NCBI RefSeq assembly: GCF_026210795.1
Contig: NC_089443.1
Coordinates: 1,550,001 to 1,614,000, forward strand
Source of the DNA: Rhizophagus irregularis
Taxonomy: Eukaryota; Glomeromycota; Glomeromycetes; Glomerales; Glomeraceae
DNA: 64,000 nt
Direction of reading: 5' to 3'
Positions 656 through 60,579 of the stretch are shown piece by piece; the first letter of the stretch is position 1, and every line of letters begins with the position of its first letter. The translations under genes were made by a program, and so were the position numbers. Under the pieces are notes generated by a model. It had not been told where the DNA came from and made no database searches. It was given only the letters and a program-made list of their open reading frames with translations.

Positions 656-2340
656 GAATTGGTGTAAAAATCACTTGATTAGAAAATCAGATGATTAAGT
701 GGCAAAGTAAATATTGAACGTACCCGTCACGTCGTCACGAATATCATTACGTGATCAATACAGATCTTAAATCCCGCAGCATTTTCTTTATTTAATCGTC
801 ATTTTTTTTTAAATAAAAATGTTTTGTTTTTAGGATGTGCATTAGAATATTTTTGAATGTATTGCTATATAAATTTTAACAATTTAACGGTATGTATTAT
901 ATAACATCATATTCCACGTTACTCGAAAAGTTCTTTTATTTTGATAATTTTCTACTTCTTCAACCATTATTGAAATTAATTCACACTTTATCTCTAAATA
1001 TTCTTCTTTTTTCAATATCATTTATTCTCAAATTAATATTTTTGTTATTTATTTCTTCAAATTCATATTGTATATTTTGCTCAACTGGTTCAAAAAGTCT
1101 TGTTCAAATTAAATGGATTAATATCATCATTTGATATCTTGTATTTCTTTTTACCTAATATTTTATTATAATAAAAATGATGTTGTTTAGCGACCGAACC
1201 ACGTGCCAATTTCATTAGATATTCTAATCATTTTGGAACCTTTTATTAAAATTACCGTTGGCCACTGCATATAGTATCCCCCGAAAATAGTACCTCCCAT
1301 GATTAAGATTCGGGTATTATTCACCACCCATGCTACCTGGTTCTTAAATAATACCCGGGGTATACCCTCTAATAATTTATCACTTTTCATATAATTTATA
1401 TCCAAATATAGTACCCGGTTCCTCACGAAGTACCCGCGGGTACTATTCAATTTAAAATATCGAGTTCTTGAATAAGACCTTTGGTACTATATTGTTGGTA
1501 GTTTTATATCATTGATGATAATTAATACATTGTTTAATGAGATTTTCAGCGTTAAAGAACAAGTTATCATTAAGATTTTGTTGTGGCAGCCTTGACAAAT
1601 CATTATGTAAAAAAAAATACTAATAAAAATATTATAAAAGAAGAAAAATAATAAAAATAAATAAAGAAAAAGGAGAAGAAAGGAAAAAAATAAACTATAA
1701 TACAATAAATAAACTACTGTATAAAATTATTACGTGACCACTTTTATGTAATAAAAATTTATCCATTGCAGGGCTACAATCTGATAATTTCCGGATGTGT
1801 TTGTTATATATGTGTTGTCTTATATCAGTTATATATCTATCTATTTTCGCATTTATCGAATATCGAATCTCTCTCATGAAATATTTTTCTATTTAAACGG
1901 TAAAGACGTTAAATTGACAATAGTTGTTTTTTATATTATTTAATATTTAAAATGATCTTTTTTATCTTTAGTATAATTGTACATTTGTAAAAACAGTAAC
2001 TGGTAATATCATATAGATACGTGATAACTCGTGATTATTTCTGTGTGACCACTAGCTGTTATTTCAATTCGATATTTTTCTTTTTTGAACTTTATACTTG
2101 CTTGCAAAAATATCTTCCCAGTTTGTATTTCATTACTTTTTTTTAGGTGTGTCATTTTTTCCAAGGTTCTGAAAATATATATAAAATGCTTCTCGAATCT
2201 AATTTAAAAGAATATAACTAAAAATAGTAAATTGCTATTTTAATTACCTATAAATATATGAATCACGTAAAATTTTTTTTCTATTTTTATTATATTTTAA
2301 ATAAAATAAAAGATATAAAATTAAATTATTTCATTTTTTT
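656..2340. other. AT-rich intergenic region, no gene supported
   Basis: Only short, low-complexity open frames are present on either strand. The block 1190-1450 contains repeated tacccggg-type motifs and a perfect 14 bp palindrome, GTACCCGCGGGTAC, at 1430-1443. A degenerate repeat element may sit there, but no ends could be defined. Confidence 0.5.
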
Positions 2341-2818: not shown

Positions 2819-4220
2819 CAAATCCGTTCATTGATTTTCAAATTCTTTTTTCATTTTTATTTCTCTTTTTCGTGAGCCTTTTTCATTGAATATCATTCAC
2901 TATTATCCTCTTTTCTTTGTTAAAATATTTGATGATTTCGAAAATTGAATTCTCTAATTCTTTTTTTTTTTGTTATACTATCCTTTTCAACTTTTTTCAT
3001 ATTTCCAATTTAGATGGAATTTTTCATTCTTTGGTCGATCACTTGTGTTTTGCGTGAAATCAAAATTTTATTTTATTAAATGTTTTTAATAAAAAGACGT
3101 TTCTTAATGGTAACCTGTGTTTTCGTGTAAAAAAGATTTCATGTTTAACTTTTTTATCAGGTTTTTTTGTTAATTATTTCATATTTTAACTATATTTTTT
3201 CTCTTTAATAAAAAAAAAAGCCAACCCGAAAATGATGAGGTGAAAAAAAAAATCGGAAAAAAGGAAAGTTTGAAAAAAAAAGAAATTTCGGTTTTAAACA
3301 AACCAAATCGAAAAAAGGAAAGTTGAAAAAAATTTTTTTTGAAAGGGCTAAAAAAACCCGAAAAAATAATTAAAAAAAAACTTAAAAAATCAATTCCGAA
3401 TGGCCGAAAAGGATAATAAAAAAATCCGTAATTTCATTAACCGGAATTGAAACGTACACATGATCCCAATAGTATATCACGCGTTTCACGTTACAAAAAT
3501 CGATTTATTTATACAGGAGGGTAATCTAAACGTCAAAGAATTTTTTTAGTTACACTATATAGATTTATAGATAATAGCTTCATGATTAGGTAAATCAACT
3601 GACAAATTTTATCTAATAAGAATCCATTATCAAGTTGACGCTTAATCAAATTGTCCATTGGAGTGTTTTTTATGAATATCCCTCAAAATTAAGGAGGGTG
3701 AGAGATAAAGTTTTTATTTTGAGAAAATTGAAAGTTTTCGATTGTGAATTGCGTTAGGTAATATTGGATTTCACTAAAGAGTGTCGAGTAAATTGTATTG
3801 AGCACCTGTAATAAAATTAGTCATCATTTTGGAAACCCTAACTTGATACACTTAAGTTTCTACTTGTTAATAAACGATAGAAAATCAATGATTCGCTAAT
3901 TTTTAAGTAAAACTCTAATTTAACAATTTTATTAAAGTTAATTCCTACACTATAATATATCACTTTCATTAATTTAGAATAAAATAATTTTCAACCGAGA
4001 CTTTCGTGCTAGTTGATGCGAGGATTAATTTACTAATTATGAAATATTATTAAATCTTGATAAAAAAAAAATTGATCTCTAATTTAAATTTATTTTGTAC
4101 TACTTAATATGTCGAAATTTTATATTGTAGGCCAAAATTAGAAATTTTGGCAAAAATTATAAATTGATCATATGATATGCACAGTGACCTGTTTGTTTGT
4201 ATTACATTTGTCAAAAATTT
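2819..4220. other. Intergenic region upstream of kinase copy A
   Basis: No coding signal is seen. An A/G-rich tract lies at about 3210-3430. Bases 3866-4050 are related to 8640-8815, a remnant of the duplication that made the kinase-Sel1 cluster. Confidence 0.5.
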
Positions 4221-4230
4221 GTATATATTT
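4221..4230 (+). promoter_or_regulatory. TATA-like element upstream of kinase copy A
   Basis: GTATATATTT followed by AGTAAAGT lies about 80 bases before the start codon. The same TATA-AGTAAAGT arrangement is kept in front of copy B at 12833, while the surrounding sequence has drifted. This conservation is the main support. Confidence 0.4.
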
Positions 4231-4304
4231 AGTAAAGTCCATAATAGAATCATTTTTTCTCTTATTTCTTTTCTTGTAAATTTACGATTATCAATAATAT
4301 CAAA

Positions 4305-6651
4305 ATGCAAAACACGAAAAATACAAATAAATGGGTGAATTTGATTGAAGAAACTATTTCTAAAGAAAATTATAGATTTTATGAACAAAAACATTTTAGT
4401 AATATTCAAAAAGTTGGAACTGGAGGATTCGGAAAAGTTTATCGTGCGAGTTGGAAAAATTCTCAATATTTTGCGTTGAAATCTTTTTTCAATCTTGATG
4501 ACGTCATTGCAAAAGAAATTGTTCATGAGGTAATAAATTATAAGATATAAATCATAATATAACATTTTAAATATTCATAATATAAAATTTGCTCATTTAA
4601 AATTTATGTTTATAATATTTGATTGATATTTTAGCTTAAACTTCAACGTGATATACAATTTCAAAATAACATCATTAAATTCTATGGGATTGCAAAATTT
4701 GATCCAGGTATAGTAAAATATAATATTCTATATGTTAATATGTAATTTATAAAAATATATTTTAATAAAAAATGATTATTTTTTTATTTATAATTAGAAA
4801 ATCAAAATTCTCAGTCAAATAATTTTCTGCTAGTGATGGAGTATGCTGATTCTGGTCCTCTTAAAGATTATTTAAAGGAAAACTTCAATAATCTTACATG
4901 GAATGATAAATATAACTTTGTATACCAACTAGCCTTTGCCGTGTCATGCTTACATAATGAAGGAATAGTGCATTGTGATTTGGTAATCTACTTTATTAAT
5001 TATAAAAGTATTATTGTAAAATTTTTCCATATTTTTTAATATCATAACGTACTTACAGCACTCGGGCAATGTATTGGTCCATCGAAACATTATCAAGTTA
5101 TCTGACTTTGGGTTATCAAAGAGAATTGAATCATCATCTAACATACAATCAAAACTTTTTGGAATAATTCCTTACGTTGATCCAAAAAGATTTAGTGGAC
5201 AAAGTAAAAATAAAAACTCAACCCAAGTATTTTCGTTAAATGAAAAAAGTGATATCTATAGTATTGGTGTATTATTCTGGGAGATATCTAGTGGTCAACC
5301 TCCCTTTTATTCTAAAGGCGAACAATATCATGATATTGATTTGGCTTTAGAAATTTCACAGGGTCTTAGAGAAGAACCCGTTCCCGATACACCTGAAGAT
5401 TTGGTTGAAATTTATACCGGTATGTAATATTTATTTATTTGAAAAAAAAATTTTCAACGAACTAAAATTTTCAACGAACTCATTATTTACAATATACTAT
5501 TATAACTTTTTTTAGAATGTTGGAATGGCGAACCAGATAAACGTCCAAATATAAATCAAGTGGTAGAAAGATTAAAAGAAATTATGACAAAAACAAACAT
5601 AATAACAGAAAATTATCAAACAGAATTAAGTCTTTATACAACAACAACAGAAGTACAAAATCTTAATCCAACTAATATTGATATTTTGTCGAATATTGAT
5701 AATTCATTACATGGGGAAGTATCTCAAATTATACAAAATTTTGATAAAATGAACACAAGAGAAATAGTGCCTACATCATTAACAAAAGAAAATTTTAATA
5801 GAATAGTTAATGATACAGTAAATTACATTTTCAGAATAATTAATGAAGGAAGAGAATCAACGCTTACCAAAAATAATAAATATATTCTTGATTATTTTGA
5901 TAATAATATAAATTCGCAAGAAATTTATTATTTACTATTAACCAATCAAGATAATTTAGATTCTAAATTCTTACTTGGATATTTTAATTATTTAGGGATT
6001 GAAACTATTGAAGATAATAAGAAAGCATTTGATTTATTTATTGATGCATCAGAGCAAGGTCATATATTAGCACAATTTTACGTTGGATTATGTTATCAAT
6101 TAGGATATGGAACTGTAAAAGATGAAAAATTAGCTTTTAAATATTACGAAAAAATAGCTAATATGAATTATGCACCAGGATTATTGAAAATTGGTTATTT
6201 CTATTGTAAAGGTATTGGGACTAGTATTAATTATCAAAAAGCACTTGAGTTATATCAACAGGCGGCAAATCTAGGAAATATGATGGCTCAAAACAATCTT
6301 GGCAATATGTATTATAATGGTGCAAGTGTTGAAAAAGATTATTATAAAGCTATTGAATTATATCAACAATCGGCAAAATTAGGTAATAGTGTGGCTCAAT
6401 ATAATCTTGCTAATATGTATTATTATGGAGAAGGTGTTGATAAAAATTATGTCAAAGCTTTTGAATTATATCATAATGCTGCAAATTCAGGATATAATGA
6501 TGCTCAATATAATCTTGCTAATATGTATTATGAAGGAAAGGGAATCGAAAAGGATGTAGATCTAGCAATTTATTGGTACGAGAAATCTGCTAATCAAGGA
6601 GATCAAGATGCTCAATACATATTAAAAGAATTAAAAAAGTGTATCATATAA
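4305..6651 (+). CDS. Protein kinase with C-terminal Sel1 repeats, copy A (intact, HCD variant)
   Basis: Five exons: 4305-4529, 4635-4707, 4798-4982, 5059-5419, 5516-6651. They join in frame across GT-AG introns to give 659 residues. The kinase domain shows the glycine loop GTGGFGKV, the lysine in FALKSF, an EYADSGPLKDYL hinge region, DFG in LSDFGLSKR and the C-lobe motif CWNGEPDKRP. The catalytic loop reads HCDLHSGN where HRD is expected: the aspartate is kept, the arginine is cysteine. Copy B has CGT (Arg) at this codon, so a single C-to-T change explains it. A linker of about 120 residues leads to six complete Sel1 repeats. In this family the kinase is thought to signal and the solenoid to bind partners; the target here is unknown. 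The start ATG follows the TATA-like site by about 80 bases and matches the start of copy B. The gene is probably functional as a reading frame, but catalytic activity is uncertain. Confidence 0.9.
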
Positions 6652-7723
6652 ATAATCAAGCTTTTTTTATTATTTACAAATATTAAGTATATGCGAATTA
6701 TTTTTTATTAATAGTATTTTATTTAAAAGGTGCCGCAACAAGGATATCAACATTATTAATAAATGTAAGATTTTAGAAGAAAGTTATATAATGAAGGATT
6801 TCAGAAGGGAATGAATTATATTAGTTAAATAGAGTAGTAATATTTTCATTTATTAAATTCGTGATTACATTTATTTTCTACAATTGTTTATCATTTCTTA
6901 AATTTGATTCTTTGTTATAATGTCAATTTATTTGTGGTGAAAACTTAATTAAAAATAAACATTGCATGCATGTTTCTTTATTATTGATGAAATTATTTAT
7001 AAAAAATTATGAAGTGAGGTTAATATTAAAATCTAAATTTATCGACTGGAGATTTCTTTATAGTTAAATTCGAAAAATTAAAAGATTTTTTGCTTTAGTT
7101 TACCAAACTCATTTAGTTTGATTATGTTTATACTTTCGAACTTGACGTTTTTTAGTTTATATTTAACTTACAATATAATAAAGTTTTTCATTATACATAA
7201 AGTACAAAAATAAAATTTTCAACATAATCTTTTTTTGAGACAAGATTATTTTTAAAGCTTCAATAGAATTTTCCATACCAGGATTTAATAATTTTAAATT
7301 TTCATTTAAATTATAAGTGAACAAAAATTTGATCATAATTATCATTATTATAATTACTATTACAAATATTAATTATTATAATTGTTATATAGTTATTATC
7401 ATTATTACTATAAAATTTTGTAATTTTTTAATCTTTTCGATACATTAAGAAATATTAAGTAACGTGATTCGTTAATTAGTAAAAAAAAAAGGATGAGTAA
7501 GGATTAAAGAACACTAAGAATATTCTAATATAAAGAAGGAGTCTTGTCAAAAATTTGAATGAATAATTTGTTATTCATATGACGAATAATAAAAGTCTAA
7601 TTTTATATTCCAAATTTTTATCCAGAAAATGAAATTTACTAATTATTCTAAATCTAATATCATTCGATTTTTATAAATCCTCATCAATCAATTGAATTTT
7701 TTCGAAATATTTTCTATTAGGGC
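6652..7723. other. 3' flank of copy A, AT-rich
   Basis: The first 450 or so bases align in patches with the 3' flank of copy B (15422-16090), showing that the duplicated unit included downstream sequence. No additional gene is supported. Confidence 0.5.
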
Positions 7724-14913: not shown

Positions 14914-15421
14914 TATTGAAAAAATAGCCAATATGGGTTATGCATCAGGATTATCAAAAATTGGTTATTTCTATAATAATGGTATTGGAACTATAATTAA
15001 TGAACAAAAAGCAACTGAATTATATCAACAAGCAGCGAAATTAGGAAATAGTATAGCTCAATATAATCTTGCTAATAAATATTATAATGGAAATGGTATT
15101 GATAAAGATTATAGTAAGGCTTTTGACTTATATTACAAGTTGGCAAGCTCAGGAGATCGTGGTGCTCAAAATAATCTTGGAAATATGTATTATAATGGAA
15201 AAGGTGTTGAAAAAAATTATAACAAAGCTTTTGAATTATATTATAAGTCAGCAAATGCGGGAGATAGGTATGCTCAACATAATCTTGCTCTTATGTATGA
15301 ATACGGAAGAGGAAATGAAAAGGATATAAATCAAGCGATTTATTGGTATGAGAAATCTGCTAAACAAGGATTTGAATGCGCTCAAATTAAATTAGAAAAA
15401 TTAAAAAAATTGATCATATAA
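14914..15421 (+). pseudogene. Separated Sel1-repeat C-terminus of copy B
   Basis: The frame continues that of 14072-14709 once the MITE is removed. It encodes about four Sel1 repeats and ends at the same position as in the paralogues, after a LEKLKKLII tail. There are no internal stops. An ATG at 14840 inside the MITE opens a frame that runs into this part, so a short Sel1-only product of 193 residues is conceivable. It would begin with element-derived sequence and no promoter is evident. Confidence 0.75.
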
Positions 15422-18879: not shown

Positions 18880-19420
18880 TACGGTACGTTTCGTCGAAGT
18901 TCATTTCGCCGAAAACAATTTCGCCGAATCCTCCCGAATCGTCCATTTCGTCGAAGGACATTTCTCCGAAAATGTTAGTGATTAACATATTTCCTTTGTC
19001 ATTAACAATTCATACTCAAAGTACAAATTCTCTTTAAACTATTTCATTTTCGTTTATGATGATTTTTTTTAAACAAACGTGACTTACTGTAATATAGTGT
19101 ATTAAATAATTCGTTTGTCTTCTCAAAAAAAAAGAAAATTAAAAAATTTGCGAAATGTCCCGGTGAAATGGTTTCAGTGAAATGGGTTTCGGCAAAATGT
19201 CCATTCGGCGAAAAGTCCGGATACCCTGTGCCTGTTGCGTCGCAACAAGGTTAATTTATGTACTGCTCGATCTGCTCGTCTATAAAATTTAGGTATCTGG
19301 ACTTTTCGCCGAAGTCCTTTTCACCGAAACCCATTTCACCGAAGCCATTTCGCTGAAGGGATATTTACCGAAGGGATATTTCACCAAAAGAACGTCTCGC
19401 CGAAAAATATTTATTCCATT
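18880..19420. repeat. Cluster of TTCGCCGAA-type short repeats (arm 1)
   Basis: Phrases of the form (A/T)TTTCGCCGAA-n-CCATTTC(A/G)CCGAA recur about every 15-25 bases at 18885-18975 and 19150-19415. The orientation switches around GGATACC...GGTATC (about 19215-19300), making a larger inverted repeat. Corresponding blocks lie in arm 2 at 47020-47640. Confidence 0.7.
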
Positions 19421-20329: not shown

Positions 20330-20425
20330 AATCGCTACCATTTCGGCGAAACGTCCCTTTGGTGAAATATCCCATGGCTTCGGCGAAATGAGTTTCGGTG
20401 AAATGGATTTCGGCGCAATGTACTG
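20330..20425. repeat. TTCGCCGAA-type repeat block, isolated
   Basis: Alternating CGGCGAAA, TTTCGGTGAAATG and related motifs, like 18880-19420, lie here upstream of the P450 gene. It falls within the segment missing from arm 2. Confidence 0.6.
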
Positions 20426-27509: not shown

Positions 27510-28790
27510 TAGAGATATAGGAGGTAGAAAAGATATTGTAATTTTTTTTTTTTTAAGAATAAAACTGTATATTTGAAAAATATAAATATACGTTTTTTTT
27601 TAAGTAAAAAAAAATATCAGAGTATTTATATACGAATATTCAATAGATGAAATGATAATCGGGTTTTAATTTGAAGAAAAAAAAATGCAAAATGTATGAA
27701 TTTACGACATGAAATTTTTTTATTTTTATTTTAATTACATGAAATTTTTTTTTATTTAAAAAAATTAAAAAAAAAGACTTAAAAAAAATGTTTCAATTAA
27801 AATATAAGGAATTCTTTTATTAAAGTTTTTAAAAAAAATATGATAAAGAGTGGATTCTTTTTAATAATCATTCTTGCACTCCAGAATAAAGATTCATTTT
27901 TTTAAAAAAAAATTTTTATTTGATTTGATTAACTAAAGATCTATTTTTTTTTTTTTTGATAATAAAATAAAGGAGTCTGATCGCCGCAAAAAAACCTATT
28001 TTAGGATTTTTTTTTTTTAGAAGCACGAGTAATTTATGTAATATTGTAATTATTTAAGCCACATCATCCGAATCTTTCCTTTTTAGCGATAGTATGCTTT
28101 TGGATGATAAATTTCTGACGATCATCTTCCATATTTATTCACTTTTTCGCTCAATATGGAATTTGTTATGCGATCTTCATACATTTTTTCATAGTTTCGG
28201 AAATGCACAACGTGAACTTTAATTGTTCAATTTTATATAGCTATGTTTTATAGCTATATAGCAATAGCAATTGCTATTGCTATTGCTATTGCTATTGCTA
28301 TATAGCTATAGCTATAGACGCTAAATAGCAAAAAATATTGCTTTTACCAAATTGCTTCTTTTGATATCATTAGAATAAAATTACAAATTAAGCATTCCTG
28401 TGCCACTTTCATTGCATGTTTAATTTAGTCATCAAATAATAGGATTTCACATCAAATTTGATTTAGATGATCTTCAAAGAAATAAAGCTACGAATAATTT
28501 TTTTTTCTAAGCTAAAAAAAAACCCCAAAATATTGTGTTACATCTTTTTTTTTTTGCAGGAAAAAAAAATTGGTTGGATAAAAAAAATATTGCGTCATAA
28601 ATAGATCTTGGATTTTTTTTAAAAAAAATCATTTTTCTTTCTTTTTTTAGAAAGAAACATCATTTTTTTTGATTATCATTATCCAATTACAATACTTATC
28701 ATTATTTAATTCCCTTTTTTTTCGTTTTACTAAAAAAAAAAAAAAATTTTTTCTTGGAAGGAAACATTTTTATTAATATTTCCTTTTATT
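27510..28790. other. AT-rich region with homopolymer runs, no gene
   Basis: Long A and T runs dominate. No coding frame or element ends are supported except the hexanucleotide repeat at 28255-28310. Confidence 0.5.
28255..28310. repeat. TTGCTA hexanucleotide microsatellite inside a palindrome
   Basis: Five to six TTGCTA units sit between inverted AGCTATATAGC/TATAGCTATAG arms. The left arm also contains the complementary TAGCAA units, so the strand can fold back on itself. Confidence 0.8.
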
Positions 28791-28794
28791 TTGT

Positions 28795-31700
28795 TATGTT
28801 CAGACAAGTTTGGATAGGTGGAAAGGTGAGTTTTGTAATAGTTTACTTTGTTACGAAACTTAGTATTTTTTATTAGAGAAATTTCTAGAAAAAATTAATT
28901 TTTTTAATTTTTTTATTTTTTTGTAGGGTATTTGACTCTAATAAAAATTATATAAACTTTTTAAAAATAAAAACATTAACGTTTTTTTCTTTTTTTGTAA
29001 AGAAATCAACTGGATATTGGAATCTCAATAAGTTTCAAAATTTGAAACTTTTAAAAAAAAATGATGTTTTTCTTTATTTTTGTAGAGAAATTGGTTCCGA
29101 TTTGGATACCAGATCTCCAATAGGTAAGTTTCGATTTGAAACTTTTAAAAAAAAATATTTTTTTTTTAATTTTTTTTTCTTCTATTTTGTAGATTTTGGC
29201 TCCGCGTTGGATATATGGGTGAGTTTTGAGGTGAAAGCTTCAAAAAAAAATTATTTTTAATTGTTTTGGCTTCCGGTTCCTAAGCATTGAATATAATCAA
29301 TATATAGATGATAACTATGAAATTTTTTTAAAAAATTATTTAATTTTTTTTTCTTCTACTTTGTAGGTTTCGGCTTCTAGTTCTTGGACGTTAGATGGGT
29401 AAGTTTTGACTTCAGAACTTAAAAAAATTTTTTTTAATTTACTTATATTTTTTATTTATTTTGTAGGTTCAGCTTTTAGTTTTTGAACTTTGAGTATATA
29501 GGTGAGTTTCAGAACGAAAGAATTGAACCTTTTTTTAAAAAAAAAAATTTTTTTTTAATTTTTTTTTCCCTCTATTTTCTCTATTTTGTAGATCTTGGCT
29601 TTTGGTTCTTAGGTGTTGAATATATAGGTGAGTTTCGGAGTGAAAGAGACGAAACTTTTTTAAAATAAATTATTTATTTTGATTTTTTTTTTCTTCTATT
29701 TTGTAGGTTTGACTTTCGATTCTTGAGTGTTGAATATATAGGTGAGTTTCAGAGTGAAAGAGACGAAACTTTTTTAAAATAAATTATTTATTTTGATTGT
29801 TTTTTTCTTCTATTTTGTAGGTTCGGCTTTCGGTTCTTGGGTGTTGAATATATAGGTGAGTTTCGAAGCAAAAGAGCCAAAACTTTTTTAAAATAAATTA
29901 TTTATTTTGATTTTTTTTTTCTTCTATTTTGTAGGTTCGGCTTTCAGTTCCTGGTATTGAATATATAGGTGAGTTTCAGAGTGAAAGAGCCAAAACTATT
30001 TTAAAATAAATTATTTATTTTGATTTTTTTTTTCTTCTATTTTGTAGATTTCGGCTATCAGTTCTTGGGCGTTTGATATTGGTGAGTTTTGAAGCGAAAC
30101 CTTCAAAACTTTTTAAAAATAAATTATTTATTTTGATTTTTTTTTTCTTCTATTTTGTAGATTTCAGCTTTTGGTTCCTGGTGTTAAATATATAGGTGAG
30201 TTTCAGAACGAAAGAGCCAAAACTTTTTTTAAAATAAATTATTTATTTTGATTTTTTTTTCTTCTATTTTGTAGATTTTGGCTATCAGTTATTGGGTGTT
30301 TGATATAGGTGAGTTTTGAAGCGAAACCTTTGAAATTTTTTAAAAAAAAAATTTTTTAATTTACTTATTTTTTTTTTATTTTGTAGGTTTCGACTTTCGG
30401 TTCTTGGACGTTTGTTATTGGTGAGTTTCGAAGCGAAAAAGCCAAAACTTTTTTTAAAATAAATTAATTTATTTTAATTTTTTTTTCTTCTATTTTGTAG
30501 ATTTCAGCTTTCGGTTCTTGGATGTTTGATATATAGGTGAGTTTCGAAGCGAAAGAGCCAAAATTTTTATTAAAATAAATTAATTTTAATTTTTTTTTTC
30601 TTCTATTTTGTAGGTTTTGGCTTTCGGTTCTTGGAAGTTTGATATATAAGTAAGTTTCAAAGCGAACGAGCTGAAACTTTTTTTAAAATAAATTATTTTA
30701 ATTTTTTTTCTTCTATTTTGTAGATTTCGGCTTTCAGTGAGTTTCAAAGCAAAAACTTCGAAAGTTTTTTTAAAATAAATTAATTTTGATTTTTTTTTCT
30801 TCTATTTTGTAGATTTCGGCTTTCAGTTCTTGGGCATTTGATATTGGTGAGTTTCGAAGTGAAAACTTTGAAACTTTTTTAAAAAATATTTTTTTTAATT
30901 TACTTGTTTTTTTTTTATTTTGTAGGTTTCAGCTTTCAGTTCTTGGACGTTTGATATATAGGTGAGTTTTGGAGTGAAAGAACCAAAACTTTTTTTAAAA
31001 TAAATTATTTATTTAATTTTTTTTTTCTTCTATTTTGTAGGTTTTGGCTTTTTGTTTCTGGGTGTTTGATATATAGGTGAGTTTCAGAGCGAAAGAGCTG
31101 AAACTTTTTTTAAGATAAATTAATTTATTTTAATTTTTTTTTTCTTCTATTTTTGTAGATTTCGGCTTTCAGTTCTTATGCGTTTGATTTAAAGGTAAAT
31201 TTCAAAGTTTTGTTTTCTTTTCAAAACTTTAAAAATTTTTTTTAATTTTATTTATTTGTTTTTTTATTTTGTAGTTATCGGTTGTAATATCCTTGGGCTT
31301 TGGATAGGTGAGTATTGAAGTTTTGCTTTCTTTTTGAAACTTTAAAAAAGATTTTTAATTTTATTTTATTTTATTTTATTTTATAGGTAATGGCTGCGAC
31401 ATCTCATTGGGCTTTGGATCGGTAAGTTTCATTTTCTTTTCAAAACTTTTTTAATAAAAATTATTTTTTAAAATTTTCTTTTATTCTGTAGGTTTCGACT
31501 GCAATATCTCCTTAAACTTTGGGTCAGTGAGTTTCAAAGTTTCGTTTTTTTCAAACTTTCAGAAAAATTTATAATTTTATTTATTTTTTTTATTTTGTAG
31601 GTATCGGCTGTGATATCTTTGGGCATTGAAATGGTAAGTTTTGAAGCAAATACTTCAAAACTTCTTAATAAAAATTGTTTTTTAATTTGACTCTTTCTTT

Positions 31701-31930
31701 ATTTTGTAGGTTTCAGCTGCGATATCTTTGGATCTGTGAGATTCAAAGAATGCTCCAGAATTTTCTTTTTAAGGAAATTGACTCCGATTTGGATACCATA
31801 AGTAAGTTTTGATTCAAAACTTTAAAAAAAACTTTATTTTTATTATTTTTAATGTTACTTTTTCTTTTTGTAGGGAAATCGGCACCTGAATCCCAATAGT
31901 AGATCTTTTATAAATAATGCACGATTTTTA
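28795..31930 (+). repeat. Tandem array of about 25 exon-like cassettes with splice-site borders
   Basis: Units of about 113 bp repeat along 3.1 kb. Each consists of a pyrimidine tract ending TTCTATTTTGTAG, a block of about 34-36 nt of the type TTTCGGCTTTCGGTTCTTGG followed by a TTTGATATAT-like end, and then GTGAGTTT or GTAAGTTT. The intron-like part starts with a potential hairpin and continues with TTTTAAAATAAATTATTTATTTTGATT and a T-run. The block lengths counted (34, 35, 36, 35, 34) are mostly not multiples of three, so chaining blocks changes frame. No initiating exon, signal peptide or terminal exon could be identified. It may be a repeat-protein gene with tandem mini-exons, a decayed one, or a non-coding minisatellite that keeps splice signals. 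Later units (after 31270) diverge towards GGCTGNRATATC blocks but keep the borders. Confidence 0.8.
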
Positions 31931-32260
31931 TAGGACTTTAGCTTCTATGGAATTTCTTATCTTTATTTGTTGTCTGTTGGAATCGAACCAACTGGAACCA
32001 ATATCCAAACCATTAACAACATGTAAATTTTTAGTAAAGGTGGAATTTTAATTATTAGCATACAGTAAATTTGTTTTTTTTTTTGTAAATACTTTTAATA
32101 AATGCTTTTAATAAATATGATAATGTTAGTTGTCACTTATCATTAAATAATTTGAATCAAAAAAAAAAAAATTAAATTTTTTCTGTTAGAGCATTTTATA
32201 AACGCCAGTAAAATGCAACTTGATTTGATATCGACATTTCAATACACAAAATTAAACAAT

Positions 32261-32295
32261 GGGGGACGAAGTCCCCCGCAAAACGCAATTTCTAG
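32261..32295 (+). mobile_element. Helitron-like 3' terminus
   Basis: A hairpin GGGGGAC-GAA-GTCCCCC is followed after 14 bases by CTAG and then T. This is the canonical Helitron 3' end arrangement (hairpin, short spacer, CTRR, T of the target). The 5' TC end was not located, so the length of the element is unknown. It could include part of the preceding cassette array. Confidence 0.55.
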
Positions 32296-33639
32296 TTTTA
32301 TATAGATAATATATAAAAATTTATATTATATCGTAAACAACTTATATATTTGGAAATAATTTATATTTTGATTAATGTAATATTTGTATTATAGCCACAT
32401 CATCTGCCTTTTTGTAATTAATTAATTATTTATTTATACCTTTATGGAAATTAGAAGTCAAATAAAAGTCACGAAAAAAAAATTTGTTTTTATACCAGTT
32501 TTTTTACATGAATTTATTCGATTTATTTATTTATGTAAATGTAAAAATTATGAAATTATGAAATTTGATTGAGTAAATGAGTAAAAAAAAAGAGATAGGA
32601 AACAAATAAAGATCAGTTTTTTTTCTTTGATTTAAATTATTTTTTTTATGAATAAATAAATTTTATACTGTAAAATATATTGATTGATTGAGTAATGTGT
32701 AAAATTTTTATGAAGAAAAAATAATTTTTATATTGCAGTAATATATGGGTTTATTTATTTTTACATAAATTGACAAATTTTATATTATATAATACAGTAT
32801 ATATTGAGTAATACGTAAAATTTTCTTTATTTTATTTTTTGTAAATATTGCATAATACATTGAGTAATTTTTTATATATGAAGATAATGAAGAAAATTTT
32901 TTTGATTTGTTGAATAAATTGATAAATTATATTGGGTATAAAATAAAATTTTTTTTTTTTTGCGTAAGTAAATATTGCGTAATACAGAGAGTAACCCGAA
33001 ATTTATTTTTTTTTTTAAAATGAAAAAAAATGAAGGAAAAAAAATATATATAGCCCATCGGTTCATAAGGAGGGAGGGTGGGCGTTATACTCTTAGATTT
33101 AGGATTCATTATTCTTATTATTAAATCTATAATCTAAAATCTAAGATATTAAATTCGCAGGCAAACTTTTCGTGTTGATCACAACAAAAAAAGAGTATAC
33201 TTTGCAAGTGTTTTGATGATCGTTTGACCGGGAGTCTATGGGGCACATTATTTTAAAAAATATAAAAAAAAATTGTACCACTATATTTCAGAGAGTACGA
33301 CAGATTACCGAATAGGAAAAGGCTATTGTCTGTTTTTTACTCTACGATAACTTTGTAATTATTTATAATTTATTCATTGTATTTATTTATATGGCACAAT
33401 ATTTTAAGCTTTTTTTATATTTTCAATTTGCAAGAGTAACGTAAGCAAATCACATGACTTTATATTACATTATAAGAACGATAATCATCAAAGTCGCACA
33501 ATCAAAGAACTCTTATTTTTTTCCATCTCCTTTCCTTCGTCCTTTCCCTTTCCCTCTTTTCTTTAACTTTCCATTAAAAAAATTATTAGTCTGGAGTGCA
33601 ACGAAGGATTATTTATTTAAATAAACATTTTTAGTTTTG
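32296..33639. other. AT-rich region without supported genes
   Basis: Open frames on the minus strand near 32870-33110 are low-complexity Phe/Lys/Ile-rich translations of T-runs and are not supported. TCTTAGATTTAGGATT and TAAATCTATAATCTAAAATC at 33090-33145 form a short imperfect inverted repeat. Confidence 0.5.
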
Positions 33640-47019: not shown

Positions 47020-47640
47020 TGGCGAGACGTCCTTTTGGTGAAATATCCCTTCGGTAAATATCCCTTCGGCGAAATGGCTTCGGTGAAATGGGTTTCGGTG
47101 AAAAGGACTTCGGCGAAAAGTCCGGATACCTAAATTTTATAGACGAGCAGTATATAAATTAATCTTGTTGCGCTACAGGGTATCTGGACTTTTCGCCGAA
47201 GTCCTTTTCACCAAACCAATTTCACCAAAGGGATATTTCACCAAAGTGTCATTTTGCCGAAATGTCATTTCCCTAAGTGGACATTTCGCCGAATGGACAT
47301 TTTGCCGAAACCCATTTCACTGAAACCATTTTACCGGAACATTTCGTAAATTTTTAATTTTCTTTTTTTTGAGTAGACAAACGAATTATTTAATACATTA
47401 TATTACAGTAAGTCATGTTTATTTAAAAAAAATCATCATAAAATGAAAATGAGATAGTTTAAAGAGAATTTGTACTTTGAGTATGAATTGTTAATGACAA
47501 AGGAAATATGTTAATCACTAACATTTTCGGAGAATGTCCTTCGACAAAATGGACGATTTGGGGAAGAGGATTTGGCAAAATGGTTTTCGGCGAAATGAAC
47601 TTTGGCAAAATGAACTTTGGCGAAACGTACCATAACCTAA
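47020..47640. repeat. Cluster of TTCGCCGAA-type short repeats (arm 2)
   Basis: At 47025-47345 and 47520-47640 the motifs TTCGGCGAAA, TTTCACC(G/A)AA and TTTCGCCGAA alternate. Around GGATACC (47125) and GGTATC (47179) the two halves are inverted copies of each other (AAGGACTTCGGCGAAAAGTC and its complement), with a core of about 50 bp also present in arm 1. Confidence 0.7.
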
Positions 47641-59030: not shown

Positions 59031-60579
59031 CTTTATATTTATTGTCATTATTATTTGAATTAGTATTTTTATTATCGCTTACACTATTTGCATCTTCATA
59101 ATTAGTAGTATTAGTATCTTTATCATTACCAGAATCTTCACCATTGTTAGTATTGGCATTTTCATCATTGTTAGTATCAGAATCTTCATCATTATTAGTA
59201 TCAGCATCTTCATCATTGTTAGTAAAGCTCCGAACGGGTCGGTTTGGTCCGGATTATAGACGGTTCGGATTAGAGCCAAAATCCGTAAGAACCGAATCAA
59301 AAAACCGGCGGTTCGATTCGATTTAATCTGATTTTTATAAAAATGTGAAAAATCGACTAACCGGCCATCTAGTGATCATACAAAGTCGAGCCATATATCA
59401 TTGGATTCGTCTCGACAAGACGCGTCGAATGGTAGTAAGATCATGTCTCTAGCATCGATAGATCATAAGTTAACCTGCGCTAAATGATTTATCAATAATT
59501 GGAATTATCAAACTATCTATCGATACTAGGCATGATCTTAGCGTCATTTGACGTGTCTCAGTGAGACGAATCTAATGAATATAAATTCGTCCATATACGA
59601 CCTCTGGATGGCACATAATGTCAAGTTTCGCATTTTTTTAAAATTTTTGAGCGTTAAAAATTAAAAATTCCGATACATGAATTTATTCGTCGTCCAATGG
59701 TCGTACAAATATGAATTAGGACTCATTGGATTCGTCTCGATGAGACGAGTCGAATGGTGGTGAGATAATGTCTCTAGCATCAATAGATCGTAAGTTAATT
59801 CACGCTAAATGATTTATAAAAAATTGGCATTAGCAAGCTATCTATGAATGCTAGAGACGTGATCTTACCACCATTCGACTCGTCTCATCGAGACGAATCC
59901 AATAAGTCTTAATTCATATTTGTACGACCATTGGACGACGAATAAATTCATGTATCGGAATTTTTAATTTTTAACACTCGAAAATTTTAAAAAAATGCGA
60001 AACTTGATATTATTCGCCATCCAGTGGTCATACATGAACGAATTTATATTCATTGGATTCGTCTTACTGAGACGCGTCAAATGGTGCTAAGATCATGTCT
60101 CTAGCACCGATAGATAGCTTGCTAATTCCAATTATTTATAAATCATTTAGCGTGGGTTAATGCGTGATCTATTGATGCTAGAGACATGATCATACTAGCA
60201 TTCGACGCGTCTCGTCGAGACGAATACAATGATATATGGCTCGACTTTGTACGATCACTAGATGGCCGGCTATTTGATTTTTCGCATTTTTATAAAAAAT
60301 CAGATTAAACTGCCAGTTTTTCGGTTCTAATACCCGAACTGAACTGAACCGAATTTTGAGCCAGTTTCGGATCGGTTCCCCGGTTTAGCCCGAACCATTC
60401 GGAGCTTTAATTGTTAGTATCAGCATCTTCATCATTGTTAGTATCAACAACAACATTATCATCATTAGTATCATTACTGTTAGTATTGGCATCTTCATTA
60501 CTGTTAATATCAGCATCTTTGCCATTATTAGTATTGGCATCTTCATCATTGGTAGCATTGGTATCTTCTGATATTGAAT
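59031..60579 (-). CDS. Asp/Asn-rich repeat-encoding exon, interrupted by a palindromic element
   Basis: On the minus strand a frame from about 60579 to 60418 and again from 59222 to 59031 encodes repeats of the 8-residue type DTNNDEDA (24 nt units), strongly acidic and Asn-rich. An acceptor-like TTAAG precedes it, and a perfect donor, AAAG/GTAAGG, ends it at 59031. Removing the 1187 bp element and one copy of its 8 bp duplication joins the two halves in frame and in repeat register. A possible next exon (VDSRSINKKLDIKK and on) lies near 58960-58890. The start of the gene was not found. Function is unknown. With the element present the protein would be truncated, unless the element is spliced out. 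Confidence 0.5.
59223..60409. mobile_element. Palindromic hAT-like element, 1187 bp
   Basis: ATTGTTAG is duplicated exactly at 59215-59222 and 60410-60417. The ends read TAAAGCTCCGAACGGGTCGG and, inverted, TAAAGCTCCGAATGGTTCGG. Most of the interior is symmetrical about 59818. Four copies of a module with GGATTCGTCTCGA, GAGACG(A/C)GTCGAATGG, ATGTCTCTAGCATC and ATAGATC alternate in orientation. There is no open reading frame. TA-starting TIRs and the 8 bp TSD suggest a non-autonomous hAT relative. Confidence 0.88.

Follow-up and report, generated by a model that had tools for sequence, protein, structure and literature searches.

A tandem array of mini-exon-like cassettes in Rhizophagus irregularis as probable cargo of a non-autonomous Helitron-like transposon, with related arrays on CACTA-type elements

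Non-autonomous Helitrons and Helentrons possess a 3' hairpin, a CTRR end (CTAG), no inverted repeats and an internal tandem array, and Helitron-like elements can carry tandem repeats; the classical Helitron inserts between A and T. The locus described here resembles them in hairpin, end, missing inverted repeats and array, but differs in that its cargo consists of exon-intron-like cassettes, that its insertion context is T/T and that a PF14214 search found no autonomous partner. Introners and stwintrons are likewise repeated DNA carrying splice sites, but those are introns put into host genes, whereas here exon-plus-intron units appear to multiply inside a transposon. The small exons of aphid bicycle genes are reportedly microexons. 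Bicycle genes share with our array a gene structure with many small exons (PMC9168663), but they are host genes with salivary-gland expression, and the abstract of that study contains neither a transposon nor identical tandem units. Within R. irregularis, two studies report CMC, Plavaka and Helitron families together with TE expression in colonised roots (PMC11075540), CpG methylation and expression of TEs (PMC8647823), and, in both, CACTA/EnSpm/CMC transposons (PMC11075540, PMC8647823). Relatives of our array resemble the CACTA/EnSpm/CMC group in their CACTR ends, a 3-bp duplication and Transposase_21 in larger copies, and differ from it in that mini-exon blocks replace the transposase region, which is true of those relatives and not of the element studied here. 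The SP7-like effectors of the same fungus, as described, combine a signal peptide and a family motif with hydrophilic repeats, which a single conserved intron precedes (PMC11333574); the common ground is repeat proteins with "repeats plus an intron", and by that description they do not have one mini-exon per repeat. Among the papers listed in literature searches, no title or abstract opening describes this array.

The window is a 64,000-nucleotide stretch of R. irregularis DNA. On its + strand, positions 28795-31930 hold 26 acceptor-like sites at a median spacing of 113 bp (range 89-174), along with 24 GTRAGT motifs (shuffle mean 1.12, maximum 7), 23 occurrences of TTTTGTAG (mean 0.42, maximum 3) and 18 strict cassettes, that is, TTTTGTAG, 20 to 45 nt and GTRAGT (mean 0.00, maximum 1), the null being 500 dinucleotide shuffles of the same interval. 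The - strand of the interval has no GTRAGT, no TTTTGTAG and no strict cassette. TRF gives the array core a period of 114 with 10.3 copies, and more TRF rows lie around that core. The first-pass annotation had described a unit of about 113 bp over 3.1 kb, with correct coordinates, and about 25 cassettes made of a T-rich TTTTGTAG acceptor, a block of about 35 nt and a GTGAGT or GTAAGT donor, all of which we recovered; its block lengths of 34, 35 and 36 nt were too narrow, for many blocks do measure 33-36 nt but others measure 13, 26, 32 or 38 nt, and close copies of the array have lengths of 22, 23, 27 and 37 nt as well. The units follow one another from an ATG exon at 28796 through E-type units and the F block to a divergent 3' type:

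28796..28825, + strand: candidate for the first exon (ATG, MFRQVWIGGK), with donor GTGAGT directly after it at 28826; from the sequence and from public models P0078 and P0082, which begin here
29086..29123, + strand: E-type mini-exon-like block, followed by GTAAGT; from the block listing and site scan
29193..31194, + strand: array of about 18-19 F-type mini-exon units, each ~113 bp; from the block listing and splice chains
31275..31735, + strand: five units of a divergent 3' mini-exon type (GCTGCGATATC); the type follows the F block also in L022, L024 and L025

Elsewhere in the window, TRF reports 108-bp tandem repeats at 261-552, 6229-6531 and 15016-15298, which look to us like Sel1-type repeat genes; a 327-bp tandem repeat of 2.2 copies at 59393-60115; and 15-32-bp repeats with TTCGGCGAAATG-like motifs at 47041-47625, 19304-19351 and 20379-20420, which may be subterminal repeats belonging to a different transposon.

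Comparison with 20 other loci of the genome revealed that the array sits inside a larger repeated unit: six of these loci align with the window from 28079-28083 to about 32286-32312 and none beyond, at 88-93% identity in the best piece, and the flanks differ among the seven copies.

28083..32295, + strand: non-autonomous Helitron-like element of 4213 bp, whose seven copies have shared ends and different flanks
28083..28112, + strand: 5' terminus TTAGCGATAGTATGCTTTTGGATGATAAAT, at 29 genome places with at most 3 mismatches
32261..32277, + strand: 3' hairpin GGGGGACGAAGTCCCCC, 0 expected in shuffles
32278..32295, + strand: 3' terminus GCAAAACGCAATTTCTAG, then TT, the TT being present in 6 of the 6 copies that have this end

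The left end of the element is TTAGCGATAGTATGC; a T^T target would make 28084 the first base of the element proper. Eight of the 29 places of the 5' 30-mer belong to the seven array copies, and in L013 the first bases of the element are present twice. The 35-nt 3' end, hairpin plus terminus, occurs at 6 genome places (at most 3 mismatches), and six of the seven copies have the hairpin GGGGGACGAAGTCCCCC followed by ...TTTCTAG, a CTRR end, L010 being without the last bases. In the window element we found neither terminal inverted repeats nor a target duplication, the flanks sharing only a T (by eye). The A/T insertion site of the classical Helitron is not matched, with T on the 5' side and TT on the 3' side; because of this T/T context, which is that of Helentrons, the element is named Helitron-like, and Helentrons are what it comes closest to. 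A similar stretch (..taatattgta..agccacatcatc..) occurs in both flanks, at 28031-28070 and at 32371-32405, the latter ~75 bp past the right end, and is a local repeat and no target duplication. For a Rep/helicase partner, the genome has 90 PF14214 matches, the nearest lying 18.9 kb from any of the 29 5' ends.

Twenty-one 5' ends lie outside the array copies, and the two examined, L029 and L030, have a different tandem array behind the same 5' end, with a 172-bp unit and ~94% alike (L030, 1025-3906; L029, 4640-5501). The 3' end of L030 is a related hairpin, GGGGGACAAAGTCCCCC...TTCTAG, and its 172-bp array has no cassettes and no GTRAGT on either strand, so the same chassis holds a cassette-free array there and the splice-like borders belong to the cargo, not to the chassis. 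Two nested insertions were also seen: L013 (~5029-7475) and L014 (~3805-6248) share, inside the array, a 2.4-kb insert that has inverted ends (GGATTAATTTTA / TAAAATGATCC) and is flanked on both sides by TTTATTTTA (by eye), a pair that to our eyes resembles the 9-bp target duplication of a MULE, and L029 has at ~1550-2260 (- strand), nested, open frames that resemble a Tc1/mariner-type (DDE) transposase in translation.

Extending the search to the 146.7-Mb assembly (32 contigs), a 901-bp piece of the array gave 85 matches, which we grouped by eye into at least 38 loci including the window's own, a minimum in that 40 of 142 candidates were scored. The 20 loci examined by sequence besides the window comprise 6 Helitron-like copies and 14 outside that set; the other 17 were judged by position, making 31 array loci outside the Helitron-like set. 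At the 14 sequenced ones the left end reads CACTGGTCGAAATCATTTC and the right end GGACTATTCTGACCAGTG; the two are inverted and begin with CACTR (CACTGGTC...GACCAGTG). A CACTA end is present in all 14 sequenced loci and in 14 of the 17 judged by position, where the right end lies in the same orientation at most 5 kb downstream; for the other 3, no right end is among those listed in that range. Both ends were found in 7 of the 14 sequenced loci, 3581-5342 bp apart, and one recognisable end in the other seven, among them L019, which was dropped as an eighth two-ended case owing to a weak left match and no duplication. Six of the seven two-ended copies show a 3-bp target duplication (L015 CAT, L016 TTA, L017 ATA, L018 CTC, L025 TAT, L026 ACA), and the seventh, L023, an imperfect one, TAG/TAA. 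Several of the CACTA copies have three mini-exon types in succession, from E through F' to F:

E type: GAAATCGGTTCCGGCGTGGATACCGATATTCCAG-like, with acceptor and donor
F' type: ..GGTGGGCTTCCGAAG..CCAAAGATTC, with acceptor and donor
F type: GTTTCGGCTTTCGGTTCTTGGGCTTTGGATATATGG-like, with acceptor and donor

The CACTA right end occurs at 99 genome places (at most 1 mismatch), and within 12 kb of these, among the 150 matches listed, PF02992 (Transposase_21) lies on the element side in 7 cases and on the outer side in 3; of the 7, four are 5.1-6.3 kb inside and antisense. One larger element, L032, is 7397 bp long with both CACTA ends, the duplication AAT and a PF02992 match at about 4584-5066 (- strand) containing one in-frame stop; L033 is like it but rearranged, with its left part inverted and three stops in the PF02992 region. 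Given the shared CACTA ends, the 3-bp duplications and PF02992 in these larger partners, we infer that the arrays ride on non-autonomous CACTA elements. These features, namely element ends, copy numbers, 3-bp duplications, a transposase domain in same-ended larger elements and the cassette anatomy, are established at the level of sequence, as is the smaller change at splice than at control dinucleotides treated below, and we regard the assignment of the arrays to transposons as strong. A Plavaka transposase (PF18759) was considered as partner and rejected, with 2 matches on the element side versus 3 on the outer side over all 123 places. The same CACTA right end was also seen at L031:5173-5340, where other repeat-rich frames are encoded and the 5.4 kb examined contain no mini-exon array.

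These counts do not fit the proposal of the first-pass annotation that the interval is, or recently was, one gene with many tiny exons, as the window copy is one of seven Helitron-like copies and nearly all of the at least 38 array loci are transposon-borne. What stands of that interpretation is that the exon-intron-like cassettes are real, that their splice dinucleotides have changed less than controls and that public models join them; what falls is the single gene, the window copy being transposon cargo in which no frame has fewer than 9 stops.

To the change at splice borders we applied a substitution test on aligned copy pairs with CpG positions excluded (three Helitron-like and five CACTA pairs), in which some repeat units may be wrongly paired (L009-L011 align at 91%) and the sites lack independence. 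Pooled over donor GT and acceptor AG, 4/257 dinucleotides changed in Helitron-like pairs versus 97/1462 controls (p=0.0005), and 23/178 versus 150/770 in CACTA pairs (p=0.04). Taken singly, donor GT (1/129 versus 42/726 other GT, p=0.014) and acceptor AG (3/128 versus 55/736 other AG, p=0.034) changed less in Helitron-like pairs; in CACTA pairs neither was significant (9/84 versus 69/410, p=0.19; 14/94 versus 81/360, p=0.12). Donor positions +4 to +6 in CACTA pairs changed at 6/131 sites versus 146/1191 in exons (p=0.006), and position +3 at 13/43; real donors accept A or G at +3. Without CpG exclusion the direction was the same; a fourth pair, WIN-L012, was excluded from that sum for lack of independence. 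The CpG decay of the arrays fits the CpG methylation of TEs reported for the species (PMC8647823).

In the column profile, high conservation extends over the T and A columns of the whole unit, and GTTT at the start of the hairpin is no less conserved than any border. In the CACTA family 12.8% of units (n=226) have A instead of G at donor +1, and in the Helitron-like set 9.3% (n=193), frequencies that fall in or close to the 9-46% of exon G positions outside CpG; a direct donor count gave GT 127 and AT 17 for CACTA and GT 106 and AT 11 for Helitron-like copies, about one in ten being AT. Exons changed faster than introns (p=3e-6 in Helitron-like and 0.001 in CACTA pairs), partly because the introns are A/T tracts, and at G/C positions only the exon versus intron rates were 0.109 versus 0.082 (Helitron-like) and 0.272 versus 0.320 (CACTA). 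Judged by these rates, exon bodies are under no evident constraint. The view that the borders are the best conserved positions is therefore only partly right: pairwise, donor GT, donor +4 to +6 and acceptor AG do change less than their controls, but T/A columns are highly conserved too, GTTT matches any border, and donor +1 reads A in place of G in 9-13% of units. The comparison of border, block and intron rates that the annotation had proposed divides likewise, with splice dinucleotides changed less but exons faster than introns. Overall, the cassettes may be splice-competent, which we hold with moderate confidence.

We next turn to reading frame. Joined frame-blind, the window's 18 best cassettes run into 9 or more stops whichever frame is read, so their regular inclusion cannot yield a protein here. 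Frame-blind chains of 3-18 cassettes each had no stop in the best frame in 7 of the 14 CACTA loci (L015, L016, L020, L021, L022, L026 and L028), 1-3 stops in the other 7, and 1-9 in the seven Helitron-like copies, with 9 in the window copy; phase coherence of exon order beat permutation at no locus (lowest fraction 0.216). Public R. irregularis gene models join such cassettes: the translation of the L020 chain (8 exons) is letter-identical to stretches of P0007 (OCT59_021451) and that of the L016 chain (9 exons) to stretches of P0005 (OCT59_002092), with frame shifts between exons in these matches to predicted models. Among the database proteins listed as matching at E<=1, 87 of 88 are named Rhizophagus irregularis, and the six predicted proteins searched (6/88) had no Pfam family at E<=0.1. 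Mapping gene models back to the loci by tblastn gave patchy coverage, owing to the shortness of the exons. A search for spliced retrocopies with one junction pattern gave 0 matches in the genome, a single pattern that says little.

Exons open in all three frames were in excess in the CACTA family, with 31 of 105 for the F type versus 11.7 in letter shuffles, 13 of 30 for E versus 4.0 and 9 of 24 for F' versus 0.8 (the E and F' lists being regex-made and partly mixed), and no such excess was seen in the Helitron-like set (7/60 versus 5.8). Shared descent could be the source of this openness in the CACTA family; the F consensus alone has a probability of 0.28 of being open in all frames given its letters. 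In principle, many combinations of 34-, 35- and 36-nt exons could be joined and still give protein, but that the module works as a frame-agnostic exon kit, with unrelated mini-exon types tending to be open in all frames and two transposon classes seeding isoform generators across the genome, seems to us improbable. Stop-codon depletion as proof of coding was tried and withdrawn, as a shared first-base G/A polymorphism inflates the null of its first simulation (96 versus 117.3 +- 5.9). Compared position by position with the first base left out, stop-creating G>A averaged 0.135 over six sites, which is not distinctly below the mean of 0.188 for the remaining non-CpG G>A changes (three sites).

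Our best reading is that a mini-exon module, composed of many short exons, mostly 26-47 nt, with ~80-nt introns between them, was spread by two transposon classes and has decayed in the window copy: the interval is probably cargo of a non-autonomous Helitron-like transposon, and the module's larger and more diverse family is on non-autonomous CACTA (EnSpm/CMC) elements. The competitor that deserves most attention, although we consider it rather unlikely, is a plain minisatellite cargo whose borders persist from a founding unit with nothing spliced today. The unrelated 172-bp array of the sister element speaks for it, as do unconstrained exon bodies with lengths covering all residues mod 3, the one donor in ten that is AT and a window chain full of stops; it accounts poorly for splice dinucleotides that change less than control GT/AG, for a donor in CACTA pairs that is free at +3 (13/43) but not at +4 to +6 (6/131), and for two further block types in CACTA copies that have both borders.

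That the window copy is itself an active gene, its numerous tiny exons being variably included to give different isoforms, we judge very unlikely: an ATG exon with a donor does open the array, and the close-copy models P0078 and P0082 begin there, but the 18 best cassettes carry those stops in every frame and the Helitron-like set has no excess of all-frame-open exons. Least probable of all, to a degree that makes us nearly discount it, is that function resides in the palindrome repeated after each donor (GTTTCGAAG...CTTCGAAAC), either as an RNA hairpin or as a site bound by a transposase. The outer GTTT/AAAC Watson-Crick pairs of the palindrome are kept in 95-99.6% of CACTA-family units, but the decaying CpG pairs 75/90 and 76/89 show no covariation in either family, on which ground we rejected the donor-side hairpin as a conserved RNA structure, and only pairs 79/86 (CACTA) and 77/88 (Helitron-like) exceed within-locus shuffles, which subtypes can explain.

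Under the preferred two-transposon reading, cassettes would be recognisable as exons once transcribed, and arrays would have lengthened by duplication of exon-plus-intron units. A CACTA copy, or a source common to both classes, may then have supplied the module to the Helitron-like element, which would have spread it, the reading frame presumably being lost in the Helitron-like copies. If the cassettes are not spliced, they would be a case of splice-like border strings arising in repetitive DNA and feeding doubtful gene models. If they are spliced, transposons would carry and multiply ready-made exon-intron units, which would give a plant symbiont a way to gain variable proteins and repeat genes rich in introns.
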